Below, piece after piece: positions 31,663-45,223 of a DNA stretch of 61,174 nt. Position 1 is the stretch's first letter. Each line of letters begins with the position of its first letter. The notes under the pieces were generated by a model. The model was not told the origin of the DNA. It saw only the letters and a program-made list of their open reading frames with translations, and searched no databases. Where the stretch lies: the NCBI GenBank assembly GCA_903831455.1, contig CAIKXV010000059.1, positions 1-61,174 on the forward strand, written 5' to 3'. The translations under genes and the position numbers were made by a program. The DNA comes from an uncultured Pseudomonadota bacterium. GTDB lineage: Bacteria; Pseudomonadota; Gammaproteobacteria; Burkholderiales; CAIKXV01.

Positions 31663-32637
31663 TCAGCCGGCGAGTTGCCGCCTGAAATGTTCGGTGGCGC
31701 GCACCAGTTCCGCGCGGATGCCGGGTTCCCAGGCGGAATGGCCGGCGTCCGGCACGACGATGTAGCGCGCCTCGGGCCATGCCCGATGCAGGTCGTCGGC
31801 GCTCACGATCGGGCAGACCGCATCGTAGCGTCCCTGCACGATCACGGCGGGCAGGTGGCGGATGCGGTCGATGCGGTCGAGCAGTGCGTTCTCCGGCAGG
31901 AAGATGCGGTTGACGAAGTAGTGGGCCTCGATGCGGGCGAGCCCGAGCGCCACGGTGTCGCCGGCGAAGTAGGACACGGTCTCCGGGCTGGGCAGCAGCG
32001 TGGAGCAACTGCCCTCGTAGACGCTCCACGCGCGGGCCGCAGGCAGATGGACGGCGGGCGAGGGATCGGTCAGGCGCCGATGGTAGGACGCCAGGATGTC
32101 GTTGCGCTCGGCGGGCTCGAGCGGCGCGACGAACGCCTGCCAGGCCTCCGGGAAGAGCGTGCGCAGCCCGTACAGGAACCAATCGATCTCCGGGCCGCGG
32201 CAGAGGAAGATGCCGCGCAGGACCAGGCCCAGGCAGCGGTCGGGGTGCGCCTCGGCGTAGGCGAGCGCAAGGGTGCTGCCCCACGAGCCGCCGAAGACGA
32301 GCCAGCGCTCGATGCCCAGGTGGGTGCGCAGCCGCTCGAGGTCGTCGACGAGGTGTCCGGTGGTGTTGTCGCGCAGTTCGCCGTGGGGCAGCGAACGGCC
32401 CGAACCACGCTGGTCGAGGACCACGATCCGGTAGAAGGCGGGGTCGAAGAAGCGCCGGTGTTCGGGGGAACTGCCGGCGCCCGGGCCGCCGTGGAGGAAC
32501 ACCACGGGTACGCCCGCGGGGTTGCCCGACTGCTCCCAGTACATCTGGTGGAGGTCGTCGAGTCGCAGCAGGCCGGTGGAGTAGGGCTCCAGCGGCGGAA
32601 ACAGGTCGCTGCGGACGGGATCTCGGTGATCGGGCAT
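31663..32637 (-). CDS. pip: Proline iminopeptidase
   Basis: Alpha/beta hydrolase that removes N-terminal proline from peptides. The 324 residues contain the oxyanion motif HGGPGAGSS, LDQRGSGRS, the nucleophile elbow GGSWGS (Ser), the catalytic Asp in QGRYDAVCP and His in PDAGHSAWE. The start MPDHRDPVRSDLFPPLEPYSTG matches family length. It diverges from flhB. Confidence 0.94.
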   Translation of the reverse strand: MPDHRDPVRSDLFPPLEPYSTGLLRLDDLHQMYWEQSGNPAGVPVVFLHGGPGAGSSPEHRRFFDPAFYRIVVLDQRGSGRSLPHGELRDNTTGHLVDDLERLRTHLGIERWLVFGGSWGSTLALAYAEAHPDRCLGLVLRGIFLCRGPEIDWFLYGLRTLFPEAWQAFVAPLEPAERNDILASYHRRLTDPSPAVHLPAARAWSVYEGSCSTLLPSPETVSYFAGDTVALGLARIEAHYFVNRIFLPENALLDRIDRIRHLPAVIVQGRYDAVCPIVSADDLHRAWPEARYIVVPDAGHSAWEPGIRAELVRATEHFRRQLAG

Positions 32638-32768
32638 CGACGGGGCAGTGCGTGCGGCAGGGGACTGGGCCGAGGAAGTTAGCACGATCCCGCGCTTGGT
32701 GCCCGAGGCGACGGCGCGAGCCGGGCGCTGGTCGGGCGAGGCGGGCGGGTGTCGCCGCTCGGCCCGCG

Positions 32769-32777
32769 TGCTACCAT
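32769..32777 (+). promoter_or_regulatory. Candidate extended -10 promoter of flhB
   Basis: TGCTACCAT (TGn plus TACCAT) ends 21 bases before the flhB ATG. No good -35 or sigma-54 element was found in the 161-base gap, so this is the best available guess for the flhBAFG-fliA-motCD operon. Confidence 0.35.
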
Positions 32778-32798
32778 CGATAAACGGCTCATCCGACC

Positions 32799-42628: not shown

Positions 42629-42795
42629 GGGGGGCGGACGGGGAGTCTGGGGAGGGTCGGGGTTCATGCAGCGGCGTGTCCGACGGCCGCCGCCGGATGA
42701 CGCGCAGCCACCCGCATGCCTGCACTGCACCTAAAGATCGGGGCGGATCCGGACGTTACAGCAGCGTAACCGATGAAGGGTCTGCCTTGAGCGCA

Positions 42796-44649
42796 ATGCG
42801 ACAGTCTGCCGCCACCTCCGACAGTCCGGATACCGCCGTGCGTCCGCCGGGCGCGGGCACGCGCAGCCCGGCCGAAATCGCGCGGGAGACCCTGCGGCGG
42901 CTGGCGGTGAGTCGGCTGCCGCCCACGCCCGAGAATTACCAGAGGGCCTATCTCGAGATCCTCGGTGATGCAGCCCCGGCCGACCCGCGCCGCGACCCCG
43001 ATCCGCTGGATGCCGCGCTTGGGCAAATTCCCCCGGCCCCGGGCGCCCGCGGGGAGGCCGTGCTCGGGCGCCTGCGTCGCTCGGCCCGCTCCCGCGACTG
43101 GGACGCCTTCGCCGAGGAGATCGGCACCCTGGTGCAGGAGACCACCGCCGCCCGAGCCGAGACTGCCGACACGCCCTCGTGGGGGGAGGTGATCGCCGAA
43201 CTCCTGCGCCAGTACGAGCTTCGCCACGCCGGGGTGTCCGCGGCGCAGAAGCGCGACGGCCTGCTGCGGGTGCTGGGCGGGTACGGGCGTTCGCCCGGCT
43301 TGCGTACCCGCCTCGACGCGCTGGTCCGCGGCTGGGCCAGCGCCCCGATGGCGCCCGCGGATGTCGAGGTCTGCGATCCCCCGGTCGACGAGGTCGCGGT
43401 CGCCGGCCATCCGGCCGCCCGCACCGATTCGCCGCGACCGTCCACGCGCACTGCGGCGCTCCTCGGGAGCGTCCTCGCCGAGGTCCTGCGCCGCGAGGTG
43501 GCTGCCCGGTTCGTCGGCGACGCGAACGCCGCGCGCGCGATCGAGACCATCGCCGGGGCCGCCGAGGCGGTGCGCGGCGAGGCCGACGTCGAGCGGGTCG
43601 CCTCCGCGCTGGCGGCGTTTCGCTCCGCGGATTTCGCGCCGCCCGCGGGGGACGCCGCGGTCAACGAGGATCTGATGAGCCTGCTGCGCCTGCTGATCGA
43701 CAACCTCGGGGCGCTGGTCGACGACGACCAGTGGATCGGCGGGCAGGTGCAGGTGATGCGCCAGGTCGTCGCCCAGCCGCCGGGGCCGGCGATGCTCGCC
43801 GAGGCGCGGGATCGTTTCTCCCAGATCGTGCGCCGGCAGGCCGAACTGAAGGCGAGCCTGGCCGAGGCCAAGAGCACCCTGCGCGACATGATCGGGGTGT
43901 TCGTCGAGCGCATGGGCGAGATGTCCCAGAGCACGAGCGACTACCACGACCGCATCGGCGATCACGCGCGCCGCATCGATGCCTCGCAGGACCTGTCCTC
44001 CTTCCGCGGCGCGCTCGACGGGTTGATGGTCGACATGCGCCAGATGCAGGCCGATGCCCGGCGCGCCCGCGACGAGGTGGCGAGTGCCCGCGAGCAGGCC
44101 CAGGCCGCCGAGCAGCGCATCCGCTCGCTGGAGACCGAACTGGAGGGCGTGAGCGGCAAGCTGCGCGAGGACGCCCTCACCGGCAGCCTCAACCGGCGCG
44201 GCCTCGACGAGACGCTCGCACGCGAGGTGGCGCGCGCGGCGCGCTACGGCAACGCGCTCAGCGTCGGCGTGATCGACATCGACAACTTCAAGCGACTCAA
44301 CGACACCTACGGACACCAGACCGGCGATCGGGCACTGATCCACCTCGTGCGGGTCGTGCAGTCGCTGCTGCGGCCGACCGACACGATCGGCCGGTTCGGC
44401 GGCGAAGAGTTCGTGATCGTGCTGCCCGAGACCCCGTCGGACGCGGGTCAGCTGGCGCTCGAGCGCCTGCAGCGGGAACTCACCCGCGAATTCTTCCTCG
44501 CGAACAACGAGCGCCTGCTGATCACCTTCAGCGGCGGGGTCGCGCAGTTGCGCGAGGGCGAGACGGAGCAGCAGCTGGTCGCGCGGGCCGACGAGGCGAT
44601 GTACCGCGCCAAGCAGGCCGGCAAGAACCGCGTGCTCATTGCCGCCTGA
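42796..44649 (+). CDS. Diguanylate cyclase (GGDEF domain)
   Basis: 617 residues. The N-terminal three-quarters is helical, starting with ARETLRRLAVSRLPPTPENYQRAYLEILG, a sequence typical of a family of soluble cyclases, followed by a coiled-coil (about 375-460). The C-terminal GGDEF domain has GVIDIDNFKRLNDTYGHQTGD and the active motif RFGGEEF, with an RPTD I-site five residues before it, so it should make c-di-GMP with product inhibition. No transmembrane segment or EAL domain. It is divergent from flgA and just upstream of flgB; it may tune motility versus attachment. Confidence 0.92.
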   Translation: MRQSAATSDSPDTAVRPPGAGTRSPAEIARETLRRLAVSRLPPTPENYQRAYLEILGDAAPADPRRDPDPLDAALGQIPPAPGARGEAVLGRLRRSARSRDWDAFAEEIGTLVQETTAARAETADTPSWGEVIAELLRQYELRHAGVSAAQKRDGLLRVLGGYGRSPGLRTRLDALVRGWASAPMAPADVEVCDPPVDEVAVAGHPAARTDSPRPSTRTAALLGSVLAEVLRREVAARFVGDANAARAIETIAGAAEAVRGEADVERVASALAAFRSADFAPPAGDAAVNEDLMSLLRLLIDNLGALVDDDQWIGGQVQVMRQVVAQPPGPAMLAEARDRFSQIVRRQAELKASLAEAKSTLRDMIGVFVERMGEMSQSTSDYHDRIGDHARRIDASQDLSSFRGALDGLMVDMRQMQADARRARDEVASAREQAQAAEQRIRSLETELEGVSGKLREDALTGSLNRRGLDETLAREVARAARYGNALSVGVIDIDNFKRLNDTYGHQTGDRALIHLVRVVQSLLRPTDTIGRFGGEEFVIVLPETPSDAGQLALERLQRELTREFFLANNERLLITFSGGVAQLREGETEQQLVARADEAMYRAKQAGKNRVLIAA

Positions 44650-44662
44650 GCGGCGGCGGGTG

Positions 44663-44678
44663 TTGCCGAAGGCGGCAA
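44663..44678. promoter_or_regulatory. Palindrome upstream of the flgB sigma-54 promoter
   Basis: TTGCCG-AAGG-CGGCAA, a perfect 6+6 dyad, plus a third TTGCCG at 44682-44687. It lies about 87-102 bases upstream of the -24/-12 element, the usual distance of an enhancer-binding site. It could alternatively be a weak hairpin ending the cyclase transcript. Confidence 0.45.
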
Positions 44679-44764
44679 TCGTTGCCGTCCGCCGGACCGG
44701 CAGGACTTCGGGAACGTGATTGCAAGTAACTGATCTGAATAGGTAATCGTTCGGCGCGCAGCGC

Positions 44765-44780
44765 TGGCACGGGAATCGCA
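44765..44780 (+). promoter_or_regulatory. Sigma-54 promoter of the flgB operon
   Basis: TGGCACGGGAATCGCA matches TGGCACG-N4-TTGCA with a single mismatch and correct GG-N10-GC spacing. The expected start near 44792 leaves a leader of about 27 bases before flgB. This implies control by a flagellar sigma-54 activator not encoded in the window. Confidence 0.77.
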
Positions 44781-44818: not shown

Positions 44819-45223
44819 ATGACCAGCGCGATCGACCGGCACTTCGACTACCGCCTCCAGGTGATGAACCTGCGCGCGGCACGTCAGCAGGTGCTCGCCA
44901 CCAACATCGCCAACGCCGACACGCCGGGCTACCAGGCGCGCGACGTCGATTTCGCGTCCCAGTTGAAGCGCATCCAGTCCGGGGAGTCGCGCGGCGCGCT
45001 GGCGGCCACGCACTCGCGCCACCTGGCGGCGGGCGGCGGCCGTGGCCCGGCGGGACTCGAACTGCGCTACCGCGCCGCCGAACAGCCGTCCGTGGACGGC
45101 AACACCGTCGATCTCAACCGCGAGATGGCGCGCTTCAGCGAAAACGCCATCCGCTACCAGGCCGATCTCGCCTTCCTGCAGTCGCGCGTGAGCGGGCTGC
45201 GCCAGGCGATCAGCGGCCAGTAA
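44819..45223 (+). CDS. flgB: Flagellar proximal rod protein FlgB
   Basis: 134 residues with the rod signature ATNIANADTPGYQARDVDF near the N terminus and the C-terminal helix DLNREMARFSENAIRYQADLAFLQ. First gene of the flgBCDEFGHIJKL operon, behind a sigma-54 promoter. Confidence 0.97.
   Translation: MTSAIDRHFDYRLQVMNLRAARQQVLATNIANADTPGYQARDVDFASQLKRIQSGESRGALAATHSRHLAAGGGRGPAGLELRYRAAEQPSVDGNTVDLNREMARFSENAIRYQADLAFLQSRVSGLRQAISGQ

Follow-up and report, generated by a model that had tools for sequence, protein, structure and literature searches.

The window, by which we mean the whole 61,174-nucleotide stretch analysed here, is contig C59 of a 4.1-Mb assembly (genome G000) that is 97.8% complete. 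It carries a flagellar rod/hook operon in which flgB is followed by flgC, flgD, flgE, flgF, flgG, flgI, flgK and flgL, all assigned through Pfam flagellar families. For flgF and flgG, Pfam supports two genes of the FlgF/FlgG type, and the two names were given by gene order. A GGDEF-domain gene lies upstream and ends 5 bases ahead of the first of two inverted-repeat boxes, which in turn precede a sigma-54 promoter match (Table 1).

Table 1. Features at the start of the rod/hook operon, in window coordinates.
Feature	Position	Strand	Basis or remark
GGDEF-domain (diguanylate cyclase-type) gene	42676-44649	+	PF00990, E 7.9e-42
Degenerate second box CGGCGGGTGTTGCCG	44654-44668	.	9/10 core positions match; lies 19 bp from the perfect box
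Palindrome of the original prediction, TTGCCGAAGGCGGCAA	44663-44678	.	Made up of the inner arms of both boxes
Proposed FleR box, perfect copy, CGGCAATCGTTGCCG (CGGCAA-N3-TTGCCG), 15 bp	44673-44687	.	Only exact match in the window
Third TTGCCG half-site	44682-44687		Sequence
Putative sigma-54 (-24/-12) promoter of the flgB operon, TGGCACGGGAATCGCA	44765-44780	+	Sequence and conservation; TCGC variant at -12
flgB, first gene of the rod/hook operon	44819-45223	+	Pfam Flg_bb_rod

Orthologous flgB was found in 10 of 11 congeneric genomes, with no flgB match in G001. GGDEF C-terminal coding sequence stands upstream of flgB in 8/10 of these loci; the remaining two are truncated at contig ends. Outside the genus, a GGDEF-type C-terminus just upstream of flgB was seen in 13/63 genomes with a FleR match and in 0/41 without one (both sets are defined below).

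Some loci were kept apart from the counts. G003 has a second, divergent flgB (44%, L123) and fliE (45%, L134), neither with a box upstream, which are perhaps from a second flagellar system. These two loci and the cut fliE of G004 (L133) are left out of the 10/10 and 9/9 counts given below. The FlgB search of contigs gave at least 80 loci with 44-48% identity, by their titles all from Enterobacterales, and these were set aside.

Promoter match and boxes before flgB

The -24/-12 element TGGCACGGGAATCGCA differs from TGGCACG-N4-TTGCW at one position, having TCGC instead of TTGC, and 38 bases separate it from the flgB ATG. Measured against TGGCAC-N5-TTGCW, it has GG at -24 and GC at -12, with one mismatch. 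By count alone such a match means little: with at most one mismatch, 0.46 matches are expected in the window and 39/100 shuffles contain at least one, so the match before flgB is not significant by itself. With two mismatches allowed, there are 2 in the window compared with 9.67 expected. The case for a promoter here is carried by conservation, and not by the motif count.

TGGCACG-N3-ATCGCA is invariant upstream of flgB in all ten congeneric orthologous loci. These loci also keep, together with the putative promoter, a TTGCCG...GGCA...TGCC core, while much of the intervening sequence varies. The TCGC at -12 is present in 10/10; in the fliE promoter, TTGC occupies this position in each of the nine congeneric junctions that were read. 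Among the sigma-54 matches before flgB in other genomes that carry FleR, 55/57 have T as the second base of TTGC. Of the two exceptions, the site in G304 was mis-picked and gave a spacing of -54; this genome has another promoter at about -51. A sigma-70 promoter was looked for at the site upstream of flgB and none was found.

The upstream element had been described as a palindrome, TTGCCG-N4-CGGCAA, accompanied by a third TTGCCG half-site. All these parts are present and conserved, but they belong to another register. The right arm of TTGCCGAAGGCGGCAA and the third half-site together make up the perfect box, and the unit that recurs is a dyad, CGGCA-N5-TGCCG, mostly in the form CGGCAA-N3-TTGCCG. 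In 8/10 congeneric genomes the counterpart of the degenerate box reads (C/T)GGCA-N5-TGCCG.

Exact CGGCAA-N3-TTGCCG is unique in the window and appeared in 0/100 shuffles; with two mismatches allowed, 7 copies were counted against 4.86 expected. This register was chosen after seeing the data, and therefore the weight rests on the comparative tests. As for TTGCCG-N4-CGGCAA, two copies with at most one mismatch lie in the window against 0.23 expected, and the exact form is single copy in the genome.

The earlier register was also searched through the genome with two mismatches allowed. It gave 686 places, compared with 267 for the reversed control, which is too many, and it was dropped.

In sum, the one-mismatch -24/-12 element that the original prediction had placed 38 bases before flgB is confirmed. 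Its wider claim of a complete enhancer-dependent promoter stands in that both the sigma-54 promoter and the sites upstream of it are conserved, and fails on the register of the palindrome.

Activators and boxes at the fleR-fliE junction

Three strong Sigma54_activat matches are present in the genome, namely NtrC (699.5 bits, cut-off 558.6), a PilR-type protein in the window and a FleR-type protein on contig C9. Four further AAA+ matches to this family are weak (E 1e-6 to 6e-4). The name of the PilR-type activator comes from the original prediction and from a reading of its sequence. There is one rpoN in G000 and at least one in each of the 11 congeneric genomes; further rpoN-like matches were noted in G003, G004, G007, G009 and G010.

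In the FleR-type protein a receiver, an AAA+ and an HTH_8 domain were identified, and it is 55% identical over 96% to annotated P. aeruginosa FleR. Its best NCBIfam model is FlbD, at 427 bits and under the cut-off of 750. It is encoded beside fliE together with a partner kinase: the order on C9 is histidine kinase gene, FleR-type gene, fliE, fliF and fliG, after which another gene begins. No FleQ or FlrA was found among the strong Sigma54_activat matches of this 97.8% complete genome, and a FleQ could lie in its unassembled part.

The fliE gene has its own sigma-54 match, TGGCACGCGGATTGCT, which fits 12/12 positions and begins 29 bases past the end of fleR (L111:13028). Two perfect boxes lie inside fleR (L111:12710 and 12730), about 290-310 bp upstream of this match. 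A sigma-54 match before fliE is found in 9/9 congeneric fleR-fliE junctions, with no fliE match in G008. Paired boxes are present in 8/9, and G003 has GGCC variants instead.

We then searched the 11 congeneric genomes for the pair as GGCA-N5-TGCC-N(4-8)-GGCA-N5-TGCC. It occurs at 16 places in 10 genomes. Eight of these are at flgB and the other eight in fleR ahead of fliE, with no further place in these genomes, and the reversed-pattern control gave 0. The pattern misses the flgB pair of G000 itself, because its first box has GGCG. The upstream sites are associated with fleR and common to more than one flagellar promoter (flgB and fliE).

A box inside a gene could reflect the protein. However, across the fleR loci the box is in frame 1 in 14 cases and in frame 0 in 10 (28 of 30 loci were read; L183 and L203 were left out), and FleR linkers without a box differ in length and sequence. 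A constraint on DNA is therefore the better explanation, and it seems that the DNA rather than the protein is conserved at these boxes. An RQxLP peptide as their cause was ruled out, as the boxes occur in two frames.

Among 25 fleR loci from outside the genus, 12 have a perfect box in the 3' part of fleR or in the fleR-fliE gap; a region of the same length at the beginning of fleR has one in 1/25. Only 4/25 of these loci show a strict sigma-54 match ahead of fliE.

FlhDC of enterics and many betaproteobacteria acts on the same rod/hook operon, with another sigma factor and regulator than those proposed here. A FlhD-like (E 8.7e-11) and a FlhC-like protein (E 5.6e-9) are indeed encoded together on C195 (3940-5372, L112), both above Pfam cut-offs, and FlhD-like matches occur in 8/11 congeneric genomes. 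This pair might control the rod/hook operon and leave the sigma-54 features secondary, an explanation that we regard as very improbable. The FlhC-like open frame has 516 aa and reaches 50 bits where the NCBIfam FlhC cut-off is 216, and the pair adjoins an SXT-type TraD gene (395.6 bits, cut-off 366). Moreover, the 97% complete G010 has no FlhC or FlhD match and keeps the promoter and boxes at flgB. The pair is probably a regulator module of a mobile element, presumably resembling the SetCD activators of SXT elements. Over the 53 genomes scanned for both systems, strong FlhC (E <1e-70) was found in 14, FleR in 27 and both in 3.

The original prediction had offered a choice between a FleQ/FleR-type protein elsewhere in the genome and a PilR that links pili and flagella. 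The first is borne out for FleR, found on C9 directly before fliE, and not for FleQ; nothing was found in support of the second, and the box tracks FleR. The prediction also stood to lose from an flhDC without a flagellar sigma-54 activator, or from a palindrome found at no other flagellar operon. Neither is the case here: the genome has the FleR-type activator, with its FlhDC-like pair beside a conjugation gene, and a second copy exists at fleR/fliE as the re-registered box pair.

Association with fleR across the order

Out of 399 genomes of the order, presumably Burkholderiales-like betaproteobacteria, 143 have FleR at E<=1e-100 and 263 have flgB. The 500 bp preceding flgB were compared between 63 genomes with FleR (FleR+) and 41 with no FleR match at this threshold (FleR-), all outside the genus; among the flgB matches listed, these were the first 63 non-genus FleR+ genomes and 41 FleR- genomes.

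A perfect box (CGGCA-N5-TGCCG) stands before flgB in 55/63 FleR+ and in 1/41 FleR- genomes, bearing in mind that related genomes are not independent observations in this and the other comparative counts. The palindrome in its earlier register is found in 10/63 FleR+ genomes. Mononucleotide shuffles give an expectation of 0.2% for the box, and the mirrored dyad occurs in 1/63 and 1/41, respectively. Sigma-54 matches of at least 10/12 have a similar distribution, with 57/63 FleR+ and 1/41 FleR-. Fisher's p for box and FleR is 1.4e-19 by genome and 2.4e-6 by family (box in 15/16 FleR+ and 1/14 FleR- families), values that are descriptive, because families are not independent and some are in both groups.

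There are exceptions on both sides. A perfect box is missing ahead of flgB in eight of the 63 FleR+ genomes, and in family f29 the box is found in 0/4. G307 has box and promoter before flgB, yet no FleR match at E<=1e-100.

The paired form is less informative at this scale. It was found in 51/399 genomes (reversed control: 8), and the 48 loci listed outside the genus divide into 6 in fleR before fliE, 2 before flgB, 5 at other sites of flagellar clusters and 35 with no match to the flagellar queries. Beyond the genus, then, the paired form lacks specificity, and the single-box test at flgB was used instead. The five other sites, L164 (G280), L239 (G052), L240 (G248), L175 (G214) and L222 (G155), lie at the start of flgE, within fliE (twice), and in the gap from flgG to flgI or immediately ahead of flgI.

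Other sigma-54 activators of the genome have to be weighed as well. The PilR-type protein and NtrC both have AAA+ and HTH_8 domains, and the PilR-type gene is on the same contig as flgB, about 26 kb off. Binding of the sites by one of them would link pili or nitrogen status to flagella. Against this, the box tracks FleR in the above comparison and sits in fleR next to fliE, which is indirect evidence. In addition, the C-terminal helices of both proteins are unlike the (S/A)ERTLR-K(L/M) helix of FleR, an expression that fitted 24/30 FleR loci and did not fit 6/30. We give this explanation only a slight chance.

The distance from box to promoter was taken from the box centre to the -24 G in 64 loci, with promoters sought in the last 110 bp at a score of at least 9/12 and only loci with both elements included. 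The values cluster near 61-63, 70-73, 82-84, 93-99 and 112-115 bp; outside the clusters are single values of 86, 90, 118, 139 and 201 bp and two of 102 bp. Taken over 30 genera, each entering with a single value, the Rayleigh length comes to 0.58 at 10.5 bp and 0.61 at 10.75-11. None of 20000 jittered sets, with shifts of at most one turn, equals the value at 10.5. Such a periodicity would be expected from a face-of-helix constraint on activator and polymerase. The genus of the window itself is off the main phase, with 86 bp in G000 and 97-99 bp in the other nine.

The same inverted repeats could act as RNA, either as a terminator hairpin of the GGDEF gene or as an attenuator hairpin in a read-through transcript. 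A box is a possible hairpin, and the transcript here outscores most of its shuffled versions in folding (z -2.25, 8/200 as good). On the other hand, a terminator-like site was looked for in the box region and none was found, TTTT follows within 12 bases in only 7 of 55 flgB boxes, and Rfam has no match at the site. Boxes inside the fleR coding sequence and a spacing by helical repeat are not expected of an RNA element either, and we consider such a role highly unlikely.

Proposed regulation and known systems

Taken together, the comparisons point to FleR acting at the boxes. In this explanation, to which we assign as a whole a probability of about 84%, the stretch before flgB would be where the rod/hook operon has its sigma-54-dependent promoter, and FleR would activate the rod/hook and MS-ring operons from the boxes, its effect there being activation.

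FleR, encoded by fleS-fleR on C9, would bind one or two of the 15-bp boxes through its Fis-type helix-turn-helix. At flgB, the boxes would hold it some 85-105 bp ahead of the -24 element, from where it would contact the RpoN-holoenzyme by looping, and its AAA+ domain would drive open-complex formation. The fliE-fliF-fliG operon would be served by the box pair inside the coding sequence of FleR itself. Activation is likely at fliE, given the sigma-54 match of the genus, and repression may occur there by analogy with FlbD: in the available text of PMC3930126, Caulobacter FlbD is reported to repress early fliF via ftr4 and to stimulate middle genes.

FleS would phosphorylate FleR. In P. aeruginosa, expression of flgB-E is reported in the available text of PMC8335546 to depend on FleR and not on FleS, and therefore this step may not hold.

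P. aeruginosa is the closest parallel in gene content, with a homologous FleR, the common order fleS-fleR-fliE-fliF-fliG and a 12/12 sigma-54 match upstream of flgB. The same available text reports that FleR recognises the flgBCDE promoter and is required for expression (PMC8335546). Unlike the genome studied here, where none was found, P. aeruginosa has fleQ before fleS. The available part of PMC8036289 describes a FleQ tier for early genes, whereas here boxes also stand before fliE.

The box itself is not shared. CGGCA-N5-TGCCG was not found before flgB in P. aeruginosa or Aeromonas caviae, both of which have fleR homologues, and the sole perfect box in the 35-kb P. aeruginosa stretch is not at a flagellar promoter. 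It is therefore not a universal FleR/FlrC site. Its absence there concerns the binding site and says nothing about the regulator. Upstream of P. aeruginosa flgB (L347, about 32605-32790) there are several TTGCC half-sites, including CTTGCCGGCAAG, with other spacings. As a related signal these are only suggestive.

In Vibrio cholerae, FlrB/FlrC corresponds to FleS/FleR as a two-component sigma-54 activator of the rod/hook (middle) genes, an activation reported in the available text of PMC3930126 and PMC7064773. FlrC acts after FlrA, which drives the early genes with RpoN. Caulobacter FlbD resembles the proposed FleR in being a flagellar sigma-54 activator at defined sites (ftr), and it works with FliX. 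The ftr consensus was not found in the available text of PMC3930126, and the likeness is drawn from the description of the system, not from the sequence of its sites.

Control of rod/hook genes by FleR or FlrC is already known in Pseudomonas and Vibrio from the available text of PMC7064773, PMC8335546 and PMC8036289. No FleR or FlrC binding site, that of V. cholerae FlrC included, was found in the available text of the open-licence literature, and neither were the consensus of the box and its location within fleR. FleR control of flgB is known elsewhere.

More tentatively, and with the odds somewhat against it, FleR could have become the sole sigma-54 flagellar master in this lineage, with neither FleQ nor a flagellar FlhDC. 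Its targets would be the rod/hook operon and the MS-ring operon, the latter driven from an enhancer within the fleR gene. If true, the usual hierarchy of early and middle genes would be flattened, and the assembly checkpoint of FleR would lie inside a feedback loop. This raises the question whether FleR in species without FleQ controls the MS-ring genes themselves, given the view that MS-ring assembly turns on two-component systems of this kind.

For the order as a whole, these results propose a concrete FleR operator in a large bacterial group, from which regulons could be read from sequence. The box would also help to tell FleR-run from FlhDC-run flagella in the order.
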